DNA from: a virus
DNA: 24,569 bases
Virus record (IMG/VR): IMGVR_UViG_3300022752_000379
Span: 1 to 24,569 of that record
Strand: one strand, 5' to 3'
Both the position numbers and the translations under genes were made by a program. Positions 2,038 through 20,052 of the stretch are shown here, piece by piece (the first letter of the stretch is position 1; each line of letters opens with the position of its first letter). The notes under the pieces are model-generated. The model was not told the DNA's origin. It did no database searches and was given only the letters and a program-made list of their open reading frames with translations.

Positions 2038-2075
2038 TAAAAAAGGGCCGACCATCACGAAGATGATCGACCCTT
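2038..2075 (-). terminator. Strong terminator of the tRNA / structured RNA unit
   Basis: On the minus strand a 14-bp stem starting AAGGGTCGATCATC and closed by a TTCG-containing loop is followed by T6. It ends transcripts coming from promoter 3759-3787 through the noncoding region and tRNAs. Confidence 0.93.
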
Positions 2076-2458
2076 ATGTTGCAAACCACGTTAGTTCGAC
2101 TACTAGGCTTTCCTAGTGGGCATTGGAGATTCTACTATCGCAAGATACCCCAAATAAAGACGCATTTCTAATCTTCTCGTAGGAAATGGCAATACGCTAG
2201 ATAATCGGTAGCCTAGAACCGGACCAGTTGGTTAACTGGGACTTTTCGTCACTCAATGGAACCACCATAGTATTGTGCGGGAGTCTCACGCTGCTCCATC
2301 GCGACGCTTAGCGGCCACTGGCCTTTTGCATATCCCAATAAAGGGGCTAAGTTATAGCCGTAAGAATACGGCTATGTTGGAAGTAGTGAACGGGACTGAA
2401 TACCCGCACGACCCGGCTAATTCTCCGGGTATCCTGGATTAGATCATCACTACTATAC
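2076..2458 (-). ncRNA. Structured RNA segment, 3' part of the large unit
   Basis: About 380 nt between tRNA-Gly and the terminator, without a credible ORF. Visible stems include a perfect 9-bp hairpin (ATAGCCGTA / TACGGCTAT, 2354-2375), an 8-bp long-range stem closing a subdomain (2382-2389 with 2447-2454), and shorter hairpins such as CCAGTT-AACC-AACTGG, CTAGG-AAAG-CCTAG and GGCC-AGT-GGCC. This density of perfect short stems is unlike coding or random sequence. It may be a domain of the same RNA as the segments at 2769-3232 and 3307-3752. No named family is recognised with certainty. Confidence 0.6.
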
Positions 2459-2531
2459 TGGAGCAGCATCCCGGATTCAAACCGAGTCCATTACCTTGGA
2501 AGGGTAAGTCCTCTCTCAGGAGAAATGCTGC
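2459..2531 (-). tRNA. tRNA-Gly (TCC)
   Basis: 73 nt, acceptor GCAGCAT / ATGCTGC fully paired, discriminator T, encoded CCA. The anticodon loop CTTCCAA gives TCC. It lies 6 nt from tRNA-Met. Confidence 0.95.
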
Positions 2532-2537
2532 AAAACT

Positions 2538-2613
2538 TGGTACCAGATGGTGAGGCTCGAACTCACGACCTTAGGCATATGAGGCCCGCGCTCTACCACT
2601 GAGCTACACTGGT
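2538..2613 (-). tRNA. tRNA-Met (CAT)
   Basis: 76 nt with encoded ACCA. The anticodon loop CTCATAT gives CAT; D-arm GCTC/GAGC and T-arm GTGAG/CTCAC are good. There is one extra unpaired base between T-stem and acceptor. A lysidine-modified tRNA-Ile2 cannot be excluded from the anticodon alone. Confidence 0.88.
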
Positions 2614-2694
2614 ATAATAAAAAGGCCGTCCACAGAAGTTATTATAACGACACCTACCTGTTCTGCGCGTTACCGTGTTGACGACGGAAGTAAC
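2614..2694 (-). other. Spacer with a hairpin between two Met-type tRNAs
   Basis: 80 nt without a gene. Near the upstream side it can form a bulged hairpin (GTTA..CCGT / ACGG-TAAC on the minus strand), followed by an AT-rich run. It is probably removed during tRNA processing. Confidence 0.4.
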
Positions 2695-2768
2695 TGGTTG
2701 CGGAGCCACGGATTTGCACCGGTTTTCAAGGTTATGAGCCATGTGTGATACTGAACCACCCGCCCGCG
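2695..2768 (-). tRNA. Divergent initiator-like tRNA-fMet (CAT)
   Basis: 74 nt ending GCAACCA, as in bacterial tRNA-fMet. The 5' CGCGGG and the 3' CCGCA leave the C1.A72 mismatch that marks initiator tRNAs. The anticodon loop CTCATAA gives CAT. It departs from a normal tRNA: the D-stem is only 3 bp, the T-loop is TGCAAAT, the T-stem needs a bulge, and the anticodon stem lacks the three G-C pairs typical of initiators. It could be a decayed gene, a mimic, or a domain of the surrounding RNA. Confidence 0.55.
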
Positions 2769-3232
2769 ATAAATGCTATTAAAAGACACTAGTAAAGTGA
2801 TGAAGGACCAATAACCACGATCGTTTCTATAAATTCGGCCTTGAATGTATACTAATGTCGTTTAATAGCACTCCGAAGAATGCTATGCGAAGCATGAGAT
2901 TACTGCTTCTATCGAAAGTCTTTGGTCATTACCCGATCCCTTGCGAGGATGGTTCTACCGTTATCCACTAAACAGCCTCCAACGGCTTGCCTAGTAACTT
3001 TCAGTGCTGCGTATTTATAAAGCGCTCGCGATTGCGCTGTCATATCATGCTAGTCGTCCATCAATCACCCGTCTGCCTTGCGAGCAACTAGATTCCGCTA
3101 AGAATCTCCGTAGTCTTTCCGAACAAACAACTTTGGCTTGCGGCCTCCATTGCACCACCTTCCTTGCGGGGTGGTATTAAGCACCTTTCACATGATACCG
3201 AAGCGGACTTTGCGTTTTAATATATCGTGAGA
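2769..3232 (-). ncRNA. Large structured RNA segment with GCAA tetraloops
   Basis: About 460 nt with no credible ORF. Four C(GCAA)G tetraloop hairpins occur here (ccttgcg or gcttgcg on the plus strand near 2940, 3079, 3135 and 3163). There is a perfect 10-bp stem TGCTATTAAA / TTTAATAGCA (2774-2783 with 2861-2870) closing a terminal domain, and an ACCACC/GGTGGT stem. Repeated GNRA loops with long-range stems are typical of large folded RNAs (group I/II introns, RNase P, GOLLD, ROOL). No intron core or reverse transcriptase is seen, so a GOLLD/ROOL-like phage RNA is my preferred reading, as inference. Confidence 0.65.
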
Positions 3233-3306
3233 TATACGTTACAGGAGTTGAACCTGCGACCCATAGTTTAATAGACTATTGCTCTGCCGAACTGAGCTAA
3301 ACGTAA
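3233..3306 (-). tRNA. tRNA-like element with ATT anticodon, no CCA
   Basis: 74 nt. D-arm GCTC/GAGC, anticodon stem ATAGT/ACTAT and T-arm GCAGG-TTCAACT-CCTGT are all well paired. The anticodon reads ATT (Asn codon AAT), although bacterial tRNA-Asn uses GTT and a normal tRNA-Asn(GTT) is present at 6480-6556. The first acceptor pair is T.T, and no CCA follows, unlike the other tRNAs here. A small hairpin (TATATC-TCAC-GATATA) starts at its 3' end. It is flanked on both sides by structured RNA, so it may be an embedded tRNA-like domain rather than a decoding tRNA. Confidence 0.55.
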
Positions 3307-3752
3307 AGTTGCTAACCTACCTCGAAGTGCCACTTCCGCTGCTTCATTTCCTTTTGGGAAACAAAATACAGCACTCCGACTGTCTTTCTCCTTGCGGGAT
3401 ACTAAACCATGCTTCTGGACTCTCACCCATTGCATTGCCACTTAGCCCTTTCACGCGAATGATCGGACAGAGTGACTACTAGTTAGTTGTCACTATAACA
3501 AGACGTTGGCATGTTGAAGATCGGGGGCCAACCCTTTTAATCCCTCACCGACTGGCTCTGGGCGTATATCCTTTCGGACTTCAACCGCTCGTTATAATTT
3601 GACTGCCATCACTGACAGCAGTATGCTTTCGGAGATCATCCGAGTCATACTCAACCCTAGCTTGCATAGCGACGTTCACGGGTATGTAGGAATCCCCGTC
3701 AATAGTGTGTCACCACACTATCCGCCATTATAGAGCGCTATGCCGCTCTTGA
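3307..3752 (-). ncRNA. Large structured RNA, 5' part of the unit
   Basis: About 445 nt starting at the expected transcription start of promoter 3759-3787. Minus-strand hairpins include AGAGCG/CGCTCT near the 5' end, a perfect 8-bp ATAGTGTG-GTGA-CACACTAT (3702-3721), GTATG/CATAC enclosing CGGA/TCCG, GTTGGC/GCCAAC (3505-3532), two CGAAAG GNRA loops, one CGCAAG loop near 3392, and TTTCC-CAAAA-GGAAA. The only ORFs are short antisense shadows. With 2769-3232 and the embedded tRNA-like element it would make an RNA of about 1 kb, in the size range of GOLLD RNAs, which are known from phage genomes near tRNA genes. Confidence 0.65.
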
Positions 3753-3758
3753 ATATCT

Positions 3759-3787
3759 TTTATAGATGATTTGACCATGAAAGTCAA
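3759..3787 (-). promoter_or_regulatory. Sigma70-like promoter for the large RNA unit
   Basis: TTGACT (3787-3782), 17-bp spacer, TATAAA (3764-3759), with AAAATAGATC just upstream. It is the only promoter seen for the noncoding/tRNA unit down to the terminator at 2038. Confidence 0.93.
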
Positions 3788-3806: not shown

Positions 3807-4002
3807 TAAAAGAATACTGCGCGGATTCGAACCGCATCCTAGTGTTGTCCATCTGTACTTCCCACTGTACTGACAGTATTCGTTTAAATGCCGGGAAACT
3901 ATTGTTTATGGCACAATCGTCCCGGCGTGAAAAGCCTGTCTCAACCGCTAGGCAGTGTGTTGACTATCATCAAGAGTTTCTCGGATGGGCCTTGGCTCTT
4001 GA
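3807..4002 (-). ncRNA. Short structured RNA ending in a tRNA-like fold
   Basis: About 195 nt from its own promoter (4009-4037). It begins with an 8-bp stem ATCAAGAG/CTCTTGAT right at the expected 5' end, then a GCCT/AGGC hairpin, then GCCGGGA/TCCCGGC enclosing ATTGT/ACAAT, and ends in the tRNA-like element 3812-3881 followed by TTTT. It has no protein-coding potential. The acceptor-like stem followed by T4 could also act as a weak terminator. Confidence 0.6.
3812..3881 (-). ncRNA. tRNA-like element without a usable anticodon arm
   Basis: It has a perfect 7-bp acceptor (GAATACT / AGTATTC) and a normal T-arm (TGCGG-TTCGAAT-CCGCG). A D-like arm has a GTAC/GTAC stem and an AGTGGGAA loop with the usual GG. 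The 18 nt where the anticodon arm should be do not form a 5-bp stem with a 7-nt loop, and there is no CCA. It is either a dead tRNA or a tRNA mimic. Confidence 0.55.
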
Positions 4003-4008
4003 TAATCT

Positions 4009-4037
4009 TTTATACAAAACTTTCAGATGAAAGTCAA
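4009..4037 (-). promoter_or_regulatory. Sigma70-like promoter for a short RNA
   Basis: TTGACT (4037-4032), 17-bp spacer, TATAAA (4014-4009), upstream AAAATAGTAC. The start region AAGATTATCA is shared with the promoters at 4500 and 7899. Confidence 0.93.
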
Positions 4038-4055
4038 GTACTATTTTTTAAATCC

Positions 4056-4493
4056 TTAGAAAAGTACTGAATTTCAGTGCTTATCAAAGGGATGGTTGTT
4101 GTAGCACAACCACCCAAAGCTGCTAGGCTGCGCTTCACTCCTAGCTTACGAAAATTCTTAACGTGCACTCGATCCTACGCACGAACTAGGCGTACCTAGT
4201 TATAAAGTAAGCCGCCGTTCCACCTCTCTGTGAGAGGGTGTGGCACTTCCACTTACGTAGCAACGATATAGTCCGTTGTCAACTGGGCCGATAAGCCGAT
4301 AACTGGTTTACTACTCACTCGCCTCGGTTGTCTGGCCAGACCATAGCCGATCGTATCTAGTAAGCAAGGTCTCCATATTCAAGAATTGTGCACCATGGAA
4401 ACGAGCCATTCATCTACTAGCACGTCTTGTTAGGTTCGCCTAGTTACGTTTATCAAGAACTTCGCTCTCGGAAACCTCGTGTCCCGCTCTTGA
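4056..4493 (-). ncRNA. Structured RNA of about 440 nt
   Basis: Starts at the expected transcription start of promoter 4500-4528 with a 5'-terminal stem TATCAAGA/TCTTGATA. Other stems are ACTAGG-TACG-CCTAGT, CGTGC/GCACG, CCTCTC-ACA-GAGAGG, CAACG/CGTTG and GGTGGTTGT/ACAACAACC. It ends in a terminator-like hairpin AAG-C-ACTGA-AAT-TCAGT-A-CTT plus TTTCT (4056-4083), after which the next promoter begins. No ORF of note is present. This is not a tRNA, tmRNA or RNase P RNA by any motif I can see. Confidence 0.65.
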
Positions 4494-4499
4494 TAATCT

Positions 4500-4528
4500 T
4501 TTATATCAATTTTAGCACTAAAAGTCAA
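4500..4528 (-). promoter_or_regulatory. Sigma70-like promoter for the 440-nt RNA
   Basis: TTGACT (4528-4523), 17-bp spacer, TATAAA (4505-4500), upstream AAAATAGTAC. It lies 20 nt downstream of tRNA-Ser. Confidence 0.93.
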
Positions 4529-4547
4529 GTACTATTTTCAGTAATGC

Positions 4548-6299: not shown

Positions 6300-6389
6300 T
6301 GGAGGAAGGCTGGCAGTGTCGATCTCCATGCCGGTCAGGGCACCAACGGTTTTCAAGACCGTGCCGAGGGCCGCCTCGGTTAACCTTCC
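6300..6389 (-). tRNA. tRNA-Ser (TGA) with an irregular T-arm
   Basis: 90 nt, acceptor GGAAGGT/GCCTTCC paired, anticodon stem ACGGT/ACCGT with loop CTTGAAA, a good variable arm (GTGCC/GGCAT), discriminator T, encoded CCA. The T-arm is poor: the expected TTCGAAT loop is replaced by ATCGACAC, an 8-nt loop, and the stem TGGAG/TGCCA has a mismatch. It may be decaying or unusual in shape. Confidence 0.82.
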
Positions 6390-6560: not shown

Positions 6561-7061
6561 TTAAGAAATACTTTTTATAACTTGTGAAGCTTTAATACCA
6601 GAAATCCATTCACCGGCCTCAATAGATAGTTTAAACTTATCTTTGACAAAGGCTTCGGTCTCTCGCCTATTAAATACAAATTCATAGGCTTCTACTTTAT
6701 AATCTCTGAAAGGAGAGTAGGTCTGATACTTAGATAATCTTTCTTTTACATTTATAGTCATCCCCAGCTTAAGCATATTAGGCCAAGCAGGATTAGATAC
6801 AGTATATACAAATCCTTCTTTACACTGATTAGATTTCAATCCTAAACTTAGCTTATACTTTATAAGAGTAAGACCTGCCAGTTTTCTAGCATATCTAATA
6901 TTGGACTGTTTGGCAGCCCAAGACTCATTATAACCTTTATATAAGGTGTATAACTTAATGTAAGATTGAAGGTGAAACTCTGTAATTTCAAAATCAGTAG
7001 TAGGTAATAAATCCGCTTTTATAAGATCAACTATAACCTTATAAGCTGTATCATTATTCAT
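6561..7061 (-). CDS. GIY-YIG family homing-type endonuclease
   Basis: About 166 aa from ATG 7061; a TTG at 7067 (two codons earlier) is closer to the AGAGAA site and is also possible. The C-terminal half has the GIY-YIG layout of the T5orf172/MUG113 type: GFVYTV, then NPAWPNMLKLGMT, KERLSKYQTYSPF, and EFVFNRRETEAFVKDKF with the catalytic glutamate region, ending in GEWI. The N-terminal 75 residues are helical and may bind DNA. It lies freestanding between tRNA-Tyr and tRNA-Asn with AT-rich codon use, as expected for a mobile homing gene. Whether it cuts an allele of the tRNA array is inference. Confidence 0.85.
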   Translation of the reverse strand: MNNDTAYKVIVDLIKADLLPTTDFEITEFHLQSYIKLYTLYKGYNESWAAKQSNIRYARKLAGLTLIKYKLSLGLKSNQCKEGFVYTVSNPAWPNMLKLGMTINVKERLSKYQTYSPFRDYKVEAYEFVFNRRETEAFVKDKFKLSIEAGEWISGIKASQVIKSIS

Positions 7062-7120
7062 TTTCAATATATTTCTCTAGGCATTAACATCGTCGAGAGG
7101 TGGCCGCTTATTTATAATTC

Positions 7121-7205
7121 TGGTGGGTAGTGTAGGGTTCGAACCTACCATGTCTTTCGACGCCGGGGTTACAATCCGGGACGCGTCCACTCGCGCATAC
7201 TACCC
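7121..7205 (-). tRNA. tRNA-Tyr (GTA)
   Basis: 85 nt, long variable arm, acceptor GGGTAGT/ACTACCC, anticodon stem CCGGA/CCCGG with an A.C pair next to the loop TTGTAAC, T-arm GTAGG/CCTAC, encoded ACCA. Its first 6 nt overlap the end of the upstream coding region. Confidence 0.95.
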
Positions 7206-7577
7206 AATAATCTTTCTACCACTCTCTAGGGTGATAAACTTATCTGTGAACTCGTTCCATGTTTTAGCCCATGGACCACGAAAAGTCAAGACAAATGTTA
7301 CACCATCTGAATCAACTTTGTGAAAATCGCTTCGTGTGGTAATGAAAGGAAGCAGACTAGGGCGATATTCCCTGACTGTTTCATCAATCATTGTTTCTGT
7401 TAGCTTGCCACGAAGAACCCAGCTAACACAGTTAAAAGCGTGATTATGAAAGGCCTCCCGACTCTTTCCATCAAACCTTAGCAATAGAATAGAAAATGCA
7501 CTCTTGGCTTCGATAAGCCAATAGCCTGTTACTGTGCTTTCAGGACCGCCGTCCTTCATCTTCTTAAAAAGTTTCAT
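7200..7577 (-). CDS. Cupin-like phage protein
   Basis: 125 aa, ATG at 7577 with AAGGAG upstream. His44-x-His46 (FHNHAFN) followed by His86 (DFHKV) and a C-terminal FRGPW strand match a small cupin (double-stranded beta-helix) with a possible metal site. Similar proteins with HNHAFN...FRGPW are common in phages, and I know no proven substrate. The start overlaps the upstream stop by 4 nt and the stop lies 6 nt inside tRNA-Tyr. Confidence 0.82.
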   Translation of the reverse strand: MKLFKKMKDGGPESTVTGYWLIEAKSAFSILLLRFDGKSREAFHNHAFNCVSWVLRGKLTETMIDETVREYRPSLLPFITTRSDFHKVDSDGVTFVLTFRGPWAKTWNEFTDKFITLESGRKIIG

Positions 7578-7873
7578 GCGGCCAACTCCTTCAATTGTAG
7601 TTGACGATACACTATATCATGCAAAATCTTCATTTTGGTCTTAACAATAGCCATCTGGCTAGAGTTAGGCTTCTTCCGAAGAATATCACCACGAGTCATT
7701 AGACCGGCATTCTTAGCAAGAATTGCAATCTGACGACCAATCTCATAGCCGGGGCTTTTTGTGTCATCAAAAGGCTCGCCTGCATACAGAGACAGAATAC
7801 CCTCTTGAATTCGAGGATTATTAATCCAAGTCTCTAGAGTTACTGTCCTTGATCGCGTACCGAGATTACTCAT
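7574..7873 (-). CDS. Hypothetical protein
   Basis: 99 aa. The ATG at 7873 is chosen because GGAGGAAA lies just upstream; a longer frame reads back through the promoter. The protein is mostly helical and basic at its C-terminus (KTKMKILHDIVYRQLQLKELAA). It is first in the unit with the cupin-like gene, tRNA-Tyr, the GIY-YIG gene and tRNAs Asn, Gln and Ser. No family recognised. Confidence 0.82.
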   Translation of the reverse strand: MSNLGTRSRTVTLETWINNPRIQEGILSLYAGEPFDDTKSPGYEIGRQIAILAKNAGLMTRGDILRKKPNSSQMAIVKTKMKILHDIVYRQLQLKELAA

Positions 7874-7898
7874 GGCTATTTCCTCCGTCTGATAATCT

Positions 7899-17135: not shown

Positions 17136-18506
17136 TTAAATTTGTGCTCGTTCACGAATCTCAGCAAAAGTCTGATCAAGTGGAGTGTTACCCTCAATGA
17201 ATACAGTCCGAAGTTCGTCGTGCAAGATATAGAACATCTTGTCATGTTCAGTAACAGTGATGTAGTTGTCAACATCCTTCACGAGCTTGAGACGACCCTT
17301 CATAGAACGCTTACCAGGATCAGTAATCGGATCCTTGTATACGTCCCTCCACTCACCGTTAACACGAATAGCGCTACACTTCATAGCGAACTTCTGATCG
17401 TCGCGGTTGACAATCTGAAGCAGCGCGCCGCCCTGACCAAACACTACGTTGTCAGCACTAAATCCAGCAGACTCCAGATAATCTAGAATCTCTCGGATAC
17501 TGTTGATATTGATGCCGTCACCCTGAAGAATGCGAACATTGTTCAAAACATGAAAGCCCTTTTCATTAACAGTAGTGCCAAAGTACTCAGAGAGAATCAT
17601 AGCACAGTCAAGCACGACGCTGGCTGGATGGCCACTGTCAGGACGAACTACAAGAGTTGCGCCACTATCAAGAATATCCTGCTTAAGTTCCGTACCCCAG
17701 AGCTTGCAAGCATTGTAAATGTCATAGCTGTCAGATACTGCCGAGACAATACCATCAACTACACCATTCTTCTTGACCATATTACGGTATGCGTCAACTT
17801 CGTGTTCGCGGCCCCAGCTAGTTACAGTGCTATGTTCCATAGCGGGAACACTGAAACCAGCCATGTCAGCACCATAATAACGCCGAGCAAAAAGAAGAGC
17901 TTCGACAGTATCAGTTCCAGCGAAGTTAACAAGGTGGGCGGCACCACCAATACCAGCAGACTCAAGACTGCTAACGCCACGAGCACCAAAATCGTGAAGC
18001 TTAAAAGAAATGTCCCCGGGAGTACCAGTACGCTCAAGTGCATCAAGAATTACCTTCTTAATTTCGCGGCTGTTGGTAGCCACAGTGGTGGGATACCACA
18101 CCGCACGAAGCAGCGCAGTCTCTAGAAACGAAGTGAGCCAGTAGCACTTCGGGTCAGTGTTGATAATCGTAGCAAGTACGTTATGTACTCCTACGACAGT
18201 ACCCTCAGGCACGGCCTTAATCTCAACAGGCAGGTAGCCGTCGTACTTCTCCATGATGTACTCCCAACCTTCACGGTTGAAAGGCTCACCATGTGCTAGA
18301 ATGATAGCTTCGGCTTCATCAATATCGTTCCAAGTAATTGGGTGAACGAGGTACTGCTTGATGAACGCCTGAAGACCGAAGAACACGGTCTCGTCATACT
18401 TACCACCACGACTCTCGATGTAGCTGTAGACGTATTCAGTACCTTCTGGGTACTGGTTAAACTGACTGTACTTGTAGCTGTCAGCATTAAGAATAATGTT
18501 ATGCAT
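17136..18506 (-). CDS. nadV: Nicotinamide phosphoribosyltransferase
   Basis: 456 aa, GAGGAG before the ATG. It condenses nicotinamide with PRPP to NMN. Conserved blocks are NADSYKYSQFNQYPEGTEYVYSY at the N-terminus, LHDFGARG (170-177), VPAMEHSTVTSWGREHE with the phosphorylatable His225, VVRPDSGHP (287-294) and LQGDGININ (327-335). Length and motifs match the NAMPT/NadV family; bacterial and human forms are about 460-495 aa. The gene has its own promoter (18555-18583) and lies two small genes away from the NMN adenylyltransferase-Nudix fusion. The pair gives the two-step nicotinamide-to-NAD+ route (NARP2), shown in phages to undo NAD+-depleting defences. Confidence 0.96.
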   Translation of the reverse strand: MHNIILNADSYKYSQFNQYPEGTEYVYSYIESRGGKYDETVFFGLQAFIKQYLVHPITWNDIDEAEAIILAHGEPFNREGWEYIMEKYDGYLPVEIKAVPEGTVVGVHNVLATIINTDPKCYWLTSFLETALLRAVWYPTTVATNSREIKKVILDALERTGTPGDISFKLHDFGARGVSSLESAGIGGAAHLVNFAGTDTVEALLFARRYYGADMAGFSVPAMEHSTVTSWGREHEVDAYRNMVKKNGVVDGIVSAVSDSYDIYNACKLWGTELKQDILDSGATLVVRPDSGHPASVVLDCAMILSEYFGTTVNEKGFHVLNNVRILQGDGININSIREILDYLESAGFSADNVVFGQGGALLQIVNRDDQKFAMKCSAIRVNGEWRDVYKDPITDPGKRSMKGRLKLVKDVDNYITVTEHDKMFYILHDELRTVFIEGNTPLDQTFAEIRERAQI

Positions 18507-18940: not shown

Positions 18941-19975
18941 TTAAAGCCCCAGAAAATACTGAATGATGTGGTAGTGGTCGTCAAACAACTTGTCCTCCGC
19001 AATCTCACTAATGGGAACCCAACGGGCCTTTTCAGCATCGTCAGCACCCTTTACCTTCGGCAGCGAAGTATCATCCGCGAGCTTGATGTAGCTTGCGAAA
19101 GTTACGACACGACCGATATTCGAGCGATAGGGATCGTCGAACATATGAGTTGCGTGAACCGAGCCCTTAAGAACAGGCACTGGAACCTTGATTCCAGTCT
19201 CTTCTCGCAGTTCTCGAATTACTCCGTCTTGCAGCGTTTCATCCATTTCTAGATGACCACCAGGAAGTGCCCACAGGCCCTTGCCCGGTTCCGAGCGACG
19301 CTTTACTAGCAGAATGTGACCCGATTGCTCAACCACTGCGTCGACGGTCAGATGCTTCACAGGATAAGGAGCGGCTTCCCACGCCTTCTTGTACTTCTCA
19401 ACGAACCAGTACTCCTTACGAAGCGTCTCGATATCGTCCTTAAAGTTAAGCTTTTCTAGAACATCCTCGGTTCCATAAGGAACAGTATTAATTAGGCTAT
19501 CCCAATCTTCTTCGAGGTATTGATTACGAAGATCAGTAGCGTGAACCTCATGCTCGATAGGAACATTTACAGATTCCCACTGAGGAAACAGCTTCAAGTA
19601 GTAAGAGCTGTTGTCCTTGGATGCACCAATAAGACCCACACGGCCAGTACCGTGAAGGTTAACTCCTGGATTTTGCAGATCAATCGCAGTCTGTGTCACA
19701 ATGTCCTGCACCTGCTTGATCCAAGCAGAGTCGTTGTAGGTCTTGTCCCGAAGCGGCTTGACAAGGATTCGAGCACTGTCTTCAGTACTAAACGAATCAA
19801 GAATCATTCTATCCCGCTCTTCGAACGTGAACGGATTTCGCACAGTACGAGCCTTACCCGAACTGCCTACAAGCACTAGAACATGCTTCGCCTTAGTGAG
19901 CGCAATATCAATCACGCGCTTGTGTTCCATATGAAAAGGCTGAAACCGGCCAATAAAAACTAGAAGGTCAAACAT
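18941..19975 (-). CDS. nadM: Bifunctional NMN adenylyltransferase / Nudix hydrolase
   Basis: 344 aa, ATG at 19975 with AAGGAG; a longer frame reads through the promoter. Residues 1-185 are a nucleotidyltransferase: GRFQPFHMEH (9-18, the HxGH-type site) and SGKARTVRNPFTFEERDRMI (39-58), joining NMN and ATP to NAD+. Residues about 205-344 are a Nudix domain with the full box, G240 to the GI at 261-262 (GHLEMDETLQDGVIRELREE core). The Nudix part could hydrolyse ADP-ribose or other nucleotide diphosphates. The same fusion is known in cyanobacteria and phages. With nadV it makes NAD+ from nicotinamide and could recycle the product of host NADases. Confidence 0.95.
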   Translation of the reverse strand: MFDLLVFIGRFQPFHMEHKRVIDIALTKAKHVLVLVGSSGKARTVRNPFTFEERDRMILDSFSTEDSARILVKPLRDKTYNDSAWIKQVQDIVTQTAIDLQNPGVNLHGTGRVGLIGASKDNSSYYLKLFPQWESVNVPIEHEVHATDLRNQYLEEDWDSLINTVPYGTEDVLEKLNFKDDIETLRKEYWFVEKYKKAWEAAPYPVKHLTVDAVVEQSGHILLVKRRSEPGKGLWALPGGHLEMDETLQDGVIRELREETGIKVPVPVLKGSVHATHMFDDPYRSNIGRVVTFASYIKLADDTSLPKVKGADDAEKARWVPISEIAEDKLFDDHYHIIQYFLGL

Positions 19976-19997
19976 TGCAAACTCCTTGCAAAAAATA

Positions 19998-20018
19998 CAT
20001 AGCAGTCTATCTGCTATG
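19998..20018 (-). promoter_or_regulatory. 5'-terminal mRNA hairpin or operator of the nadM gene
   Basis: A perfect 8-bp stem CATAGCAG / CTGCTATG with loop ATAGA. It begins 6 nt after the -10 box, so the mRNA would start with this hairpin. This could protect the 5' end, or mark a repressor site as at nadV. Confidence 0.6.
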
Positions 20019-20023
20019 AGTCC

Positions 20024-20052
20024 ACTATACACAATTTTGGGTCTATTGTCAA
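20024..20052 (-). promoter_or_regulatory. Sigma70-like promoter of the nadM operon
   Basis: TTGACA (20052-20047), 17-bp spacer, TATAGT (20029-20024). Divergent from the plus-strand promoter at 20070. Confidence 0.92.

Follow-up and report, generated by a model that had tools for sequence, protein, structure and literature searches.

A GOLLD RNA in a tRNA-rich phage record carries a tRNA-derived and probably non-decoding cassette in its linker

The DNA analysed here, referred to as the window, is a virus record of 24,569 nt in which ARAGORN found 21 tRNAs, with the tRNA cluster on the minus strand. The features of the region of interest and of its immediate upstream neighbourhood are as follows.

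4070–4500, minus strand: structured RNA Y (modelled core 4279–4433), with its own promoter-module copy at 4528–4500
3813–4037, minus strand: third promoter module (4037–4009), a short hairpin RNA (about 4000–3880) and an aberrant tRNA-like gene (3882–3813), recognised from the repeat and from folding
3759–3787, minus strand: sigma-70-like promoter of GOLLD (TTGACT, 17-nt spacer, TATAAA), read from the sequence
2769–3752, minus strand: GOLLD RNA, matched by Rfam and conserved end to end in the relatives L014 (78%) and L019 (76%)
3380–3752, minus strand: GOLLD 5′ domain, the presumed cage cap, judged from the cryo-EM structure of another GOLLD; outside the Rfam model
2891–3379, minus strand: GOLLD 3′ domain, which defines the Rfam family (RF02032 match, covariation in 19 sequences)
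3231–3307, minus strand: tRNA-like cassette in the GOLLD linker (ARAGORN; RF00005, 59.9 bits)
2769–2890, minus strand: 3′ extension beyond the Rfam model, predicted to fold into a small hairpin and one long hairpin
2695–2768, minus strand: degenerate tRNA-Met(CAU), recognised by alignment, at the place of an intact tRNA-Met in L014 and L019
2538–2613, minus strand: tRNA with anticodon CAU (RF00005, 49.2 bits)
2460–2530, minus strand: tRNA-Gly(UCC) (RF00005, 32.8 bits)
2042–2327, minus strand: structured RNA X, which follows tRNA-Gly(UCC) and ends in the terminator
2043–2075, minus strand: intrinsic terminator of 14 pairs and a U-run, kept in L014 and L360 with compensatory changes

The preliminary description had proposed that one promoter and one strong terminator enclose a mostly noncoding unit with two normal and two odd tRNAs. 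The promoter and the terminator were both found (3787–3759 and 2075–2043), and the sole open reading frame of at least 60 aa between them encodes 67 aa on the opposite strand. Because the promoter was predicted from the sequence at 3787–3759, the transcript is expected to start near 3752. The normal tRNAs (2613–2538 and 2530–2460) and the odd ones (2768–2695 and 3307–3231) were likewise recovered, the odd tRNA-Met at 2768–2695 being found neither by ARAGORN nor by Rfam at E = 1. The unit is thus real, although it does not make up a single RNA: at least two are present, GOLLD (3752–2769) and a separate RNA (2327–2042); in L014 a protein gene separates them.

The GOLLD promoter belongs to a 53-nt module which is 92–96% identical in L014 and L019 and has further copies in the window at 3995–4047 and 4486–4538. 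Three such modules (TTGACT-17-TATAAA with conserved flanks) stand in tandem on the minus strand, at 4528–4500, 4037–4009 and 3787–3759; each starts a structured RNA, whose 5′ end reads ATCAAGAGC or TTCAAGAGC. The tRNA-like gene at 3882–3813, downstream of the third module, was not accepted by ARAGORN. RNA Y has homologs upstream of GOLLD in L019 (1360–1514) and L014 (270–424), and its covariation is weak (double changes in 3 of 29 pairs). RNA X has homologs in L014 (2658–2936) and L360, the L019 contig (5459–5736), in the same place after tRNA-Gly(UCC) and with the same terminator; two-sided changes were seen in 22 of its 70 predicted pairs across the three sequences, giving covarying hairpins. 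Rfam gave no match for RNA X or for RNA Y, and a covariance model of RNA X matched only the window, L014 and L360 among 100 sources. IMG/VR patterns, covariance models and distant BLAST of phage records yielded no relative of either RNA outside the window phage, L014 and L019.

Since alphaproteobacterial phages carry tmRNA beside GOLLD, RNA X was also considered as a tmRNA; this was rejected, as positions 2030–2540 were unmatched at E up to 10 while the tmRNAs of L002 and L003 gave 110–119 bits. Permuted tmRNAs of the alphaproteobacterial type lie near phage GOLLD in L002 (5229–5644), L003 (5381–5797) and L060 (8196–8535), as well as in L363–L367, L370, L371 and L361 (the L014 contig), and they occur beside GOLLD in Caulobacter phages too. 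Elsewhere on the minus strand of the window, a selenocysteine-tRNA-like tRNA was seen at 6304–6389 (46.2 bits, marginally below the cut-off of 47), where L019 has, at the corresponding place between tRNA-Asp and tRNA-Gln, a tRNA-Ser(UGA). Genes for a nicotinamide phosphoribosyltransferase and a NadM-Nudix protein were located at 17136–18506 and 18941–20032, also on the minus strand, and probably form an NAD-salvage pair encoded by the phage. For the transferase, the best relatives occur in phages of 150–300 kb that infect Synechococcus, Xanthomonas and Roseobacter.

The preliminary description had left open whether the long noncoding part is GOLLD, ROOL or a new class. The RF02032 model matched positions 3379–2891 over its entire length (1–416 of 416), scoring 179.5 bits where the cut-off is 150 (E 3e-49), and the same model had no match in a control of 14 genomes. 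The Rfam model of ROOL, likewise a phage-borne cage RNA that occurs near tRNA genes and has a variable inward linker, had no match in the window at E up to 1, and ROOL differs from the window RNA in sequence and structure. L014 and L019 align across the whole of 3797–2692 (78% and 76%). Double changes were observed in 52 of the 73 pairs of the 3′ domain among 19 sequences including the window, and 29 of the 108 pairs predicted for the 373-nt 5′ domain stay paired through two-sided changes in three sequences. The covariation among homologs that had been put forward as a check was therefore obtained in both domains, and in the cloverleaf described below as well. The 984-nt RNA folded more stably than all 20 of 20 dinucleotide shuffles (z = −3.0), and it contains five CGCAAG and two CGAAAG motifs where about 0.24 of each is expected by chance, in exact agreement with the five GCAA and two GAAA tetraloops counted earlier. 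The predicted length is about 984 nt with the 3′ extension and about 860 nt without it. The 122-nt extension is 90–93% identical in L014 and L019 and absent from the other loci examined; an IMG/VR pattern scan for it matched only L014 elsewhere.

Thus, the RNA scores over the family cut-off, has a covarying 3′ domain and a structured 5′ domain, is predicted to exceed about 800 nt and lies in a virus record near tRNA genes (21 by ARAGORN). With the Caulobacter, Roseobacter and lake-phage members of RF02032 it shares the full-length match, the position of the linker, GNRA-rich hairpins, the tRNA cluster and its size; relative to other GOLLDs it adds the 3′ extension, observed in a small group only, and then an undescribed RNA downstream. 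On homology and covariation, the unit almost certainly encodes a GOLLD RNA. An ordinary tRNA operon with structured spacers, in which the likeness to GOLLD is incidental, would suit the surrounding cluster of more than 20 tRNA genes; it is already contradicted by the full-length covariance model match and by the covariation in both domains, and is barely credible.

The GOLLD RNA env-38 has been shown by cryo-EM to form a cage of 14 subunits with a variable linker inside, and phage tRNAs sometimes occur in this linker (PMC12286853; PDB 9MEE). By analogy with that structure, the only GOLLD for which a cage is known, the GOLLD of the window is expected to form a hollow cage of 14 subunits whose linkers are directed inward. 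Within its 3′ domain, the window RNA has its linker in the part where that structure has a disordered, inward-pointing one (PMC12286853). They differ in that the env-38 linker (497–538) is a short disordered loop, whereas that of the window is a cloverleaf. The tRNA-like fold that had been suspected inside the RNA is thus present, and it is located in the known GOLLD linker: the cassette at 3307–3231 is inserted between positions 102 and 109 of the GOLLD model. Such a cassette is common to many GOLLD members and not to all.

The window cassette has the three cloverleaf arms D, anticodon and T (ARAGORN, RF00005). Its anticodon loop is CUAUUAA (formal anticodon AUU), with A at position 34, and it encodes no CCA, whereas CCA is encoded by all 20 of the other 20 ARAGORN tRNAs of the window. 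U33, A34 and CCA were taken as criteria for judging whether a tRNA works. Since the window cassette also has U33, A37 and a mostly paired acceptor stem, the case for its loss of decoding comes from the missing CCA and from A34 only. The comparison was extended to the family at 99 loci, which yielded 77 distinct embedded elements and, alongside them, 1017 distinct free tRNAs. CCA was encoded in 2 of the 77 embedded elements versus 978 of the 1017 free tRNAs, and G33 occurred in 4 of 73 seven-nucleotide embedded loops versus none of 1009 free tRNAs. Four of the 77 elements have anticodon loops of 6 or 8 nt, and the embedded acceptor stems are usually broken at the outer pairs. Anticodons of the NUU (Lys/Asn) type were found in 49 of 77 embedded elements versus 81 of 1017 free tRNAs.

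Two sets of GOLLD relatives were collected from IMG/VR. The first came from a pattern in the 3′ core, confirmed with Rfam and blind to tRNAs; the second came from a pattern around the linker. This second pattern prescribes the T loop and the 5′ junction, both of which are therefore uninformative in that set, and places no constraint on the anticodon arm, on the D arm or on whether CCA is present. A loose GOLLD pattern run on genomes gave mostly chance matches, among which only L177 and L207 were GOLLD. In L177, a Crocinitomicaceae genome, two tandem GOLLDs (6611–7881) have tRNA-like linkers with the formal anticodons TTT and GAG.

Since tRNA finders select paired stems, linkers for the test of the fold were picked by position. 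The 15 linkers comprised 13 from the tRNA-blind set, the window and L002; L010, L014, L019 and L060, in which the linker is decayed or rearranged and the cloverleaf no longer in order, were omitted. De novo, RNAalifold recovered the D, anticodon and T arms of these 15 linkers and not the acceptor stem. On the cloverleaf, 99.5% of cells were paired, and covariation was 0.81 compared with 0.22 after shuffling and at most 0.15 after sliding. The fold is not universal: it occurs in about 13 of the 17 distinct linkers of the first set, and there it has been retained. L014 and L019, the nearest full-length relatives, have no cloverleaf in the linker, only a remnant hairpin, and the cloverleaf is therefore not needed by GOLLD; the linkers of L004, L013 and L055 are without a tRNA. 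In the omitted linker of L060 (4700–4870), a circularly permuted tRNA can be read by eye: the T arm comes first, followed by the 3′ strand of the acceptor stem with CCA and then by its 5′ strand (CTCCCCC with GGGGGAG), and the D arm and an anticodon arm with the loop ATCTTGA come last. With the anticodon masked, 73 of 76 embedded elements had another embedded element as their closest relative, so that the embedded elements constitute a distinct family; for the window cassette the margin between embedded and free nearest relatives was narrow (34 vs 32).

Across the set, features of translation are lost and the shape of the D, anticodon and T arms is retained. The linker element in the window phage and in many relatives would thus be a tRNA-derived, non-decoding tRNA mimic, a reading to which we give a probability of roughly 0.75, and the tRNA-shaped piece in the window GOLLD is probably not a working tRNA. 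That tRNAs occur in GOLLD linkers has been reported before; what appears new, relative to PMC12286853 and to the accessible text of PMC6582537, is the nature of the tRNA-like element.

The variability of the anticodon loop was measured on relatives; the window cassette has no near-identical relative, and its own variability would follow from that of the family. Between elements whose bodies are at most 2 differences apart, embedded loops of 7 nt differed at 2.33 positions compared with 0.11 in free tRNAs, and the anticodon differed in 13 of 21 near-identical embedded pairs versus 3 of 150 pairs of free tRNAs; the pairs in both counts are not independent, and a P value for the contrast is therefore indicative at best. 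Most relatives are metagenome contigs, and complete genomes of cultured phages were examined to exclude assembly artefacts. In Caulobacter phages of the phiCbK group, GOLLD is nearly identical and the loops differ between isolates: CTCTTAA in Magneto, Ccr5 and Swift, CGTCCTA in phiCbK, Ccr10 and Ccr29, and CATCCTA in BL57. Between Magneto and phiCbK, the cassette is identical except for five adjacent positions in the loop, and the approximately 890 nt around it contain three differing sites. Position 33 is a purine in two of the three loop alleles, and none of the three elements has an encoded CCA; the genome records annotate these elements as tRNA-Lys and tRNA-Gly. These comparisons indicate that the anticodon loop changes much faster than its surroundings, both in the relatives and in the sequenced Caulobacter phages. 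The stable anticodon identity along descent that is expected of a functional tRNA was not observed among the relatives. Because the differing loop positions are adjacent, the changes could represent few events, which would weigh against hypervariability.

Whole cassettes also differ between otherwise matching RNAs. L319 and L322 are identical at 420 of 420 positions downstream and 89 of 90 upstream of the linker and at only 60 of 91 within it, and the converse relation of cassettes to backbones was likewise seen. Judging from these alignments, cassettes are exchanged between GOLLD backbones. Gradual drift of the cassette is weakened as an account, since near-identical GOLLD cores carry different cassettes; exchange combined with loop change appears to fit better.

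Three other readings of the linker were weighed against a non-decoding mimic. The element might be a working phage tRNA that RNase P and 3′ nucleases release from the GOLLD transcript and that a host enzyme supplies with CCA. Its score of 60 bits as a tRNA, the two CCA ends among 77 elements and the labels tRNA-Lys, tRNA-Gly, tRNA-Arg and tRNA-Leu that phage annotators give to such elements are consistent with this. However, every other ARAGORN tRNA of the window encodes its CCA, loops lacking U33, loops of 6 and 8 nt and mismatched acceptor stems recur, and excision would cut GOLLD in two. The anticodon, moreover, shifts with little or no change of the body, so that a switch of synthetase would be needed each time. 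A mycobacterial GOLLD offers one similar case of a tRNA-like gene within the RNA: according to the accessible text of that report, this pseudo-tRNA was judged non-functional and its expression was not detectable (PMC6582537), and the same text gives no account of fold conservation, of the family-wide absence of CCA or of a hypervariable loop. We regard a working tRNA as quite improbable. The linker could instead be a passive tether, into which tRNA genes recombine and decay harmlessly while the cage alone works. The remnant hairpins of L014 and L019, the absence of a linker tRNA from L004, L013 and L055, the cage formed by the cryo-EM RNA with a disordered linker of 42 nt and the swap of cassettes between the backbones of L319 and L322 all agree with such a tether; yet diverged cassettes are 99.5% paired and covary strongly (in the 15 chosen by position, the four decayed or rearranged linkers being omitted), CCA is lost almost everywhere, so that these are no fresh insertions, and neutral decay does not explain why change is concentrated in the loop. 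A passive tether seems unlikely to us.

The loop might also be a site of pairing with RNA, kissing a second subunit within the cage, the anticodon of a host tRNA or an mRNA, so that its alleles would hold the cages of different phages apart or retarget them. Kissing loops hold the GOLLD cage together in the cryo-EM structure, a stable stem bearing a hypervariable loop of 7 nt would be apt for specific pairing, and many loops (CTNTTAA) contain the self-complementary UUAA. CTNTTAA is, however, the usual anticodon loop of Lys and Asn tRNAs, the common variants CGTCCTA, TTTAGAT and ATTGAAG are not self-complementary, and a non-exhaustive search found no compensating partner site. Pairing of this kind seems rather improbable to us.

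For the non-decoding mimic, a role as bait can be proposed. By homology with env-38, the GOLLD cage in an infected host would hold the linker cassettes inward, and the many copies of a tRNA mimic would bind a host protein that recognises tRNA by its anticodon loop, candidates being an anticodon nuclease or another defence effector; the loop of the cassette would change as the host protein changes. An unusually fast-changing loop on a retained shape is what one would expect from a bait and not from a translating tRNA. PrrC and AriB of PARIS both cleave tRNA-Lys (PMC10264068, PMC11455837), and together with the Lys/Asn bias of the cassettes this makes anticodon nucleases the leading candidates. 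Altered anticodon loops are likewise found in phage tRNAs by which such nucleases are evaded (PMC10264068; T5 tRNA-Lys against PARIS, PMC11455837), and Lys is over-represented among the GOLLD cassettes. Those tRNAs work and replace the cleaved ones, whereas the GOLLD cassette appears unable to decode; being non-decoding, it could only bind, distract or report. While mimicry of tRNA by the linker cassette is well supported, its use as bait is our inference. In the known structure the place of the cassette is inside a closed cage, where a bait would be poorly accessible if the cage did not open; the excess of NUU may reflect mere descent from a tRNA-Lys or tRNA-Asn ancestor, and the nearest full-length relatives, L014 and L019, are without the cloverleaf. 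The whole chain, from a GOLLD cage through a non-decoding mimic to a bait for some host factor recognising anticodon loops, is therefore offered tentatively, at somewhat less than even odds. Still more doubtful is the generalisation that GOLLD linkers make up an undescribed class of tRNA mimics that do not decode and that diversify rapidly, with the cage presenting or holding 14 baits whose loops are shaped by an arms race with the host.

GOLLD is among the largest structured bacterial RNAs, and its cage structure has been solved while its function is not known. Many of the annotated phage 'tRNAs' within GOLLD are probably not tRNAs and are unsuitable for arguments on codon usage. A fast-changing loop on a conserved fold, in GOLLDs of culturable Caulobacter phages that are nearly identical elsewhere, makes the function testable, by a search for the reader of the loop. 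The arms-race bait class, if true, would be the first function for GOLLD.
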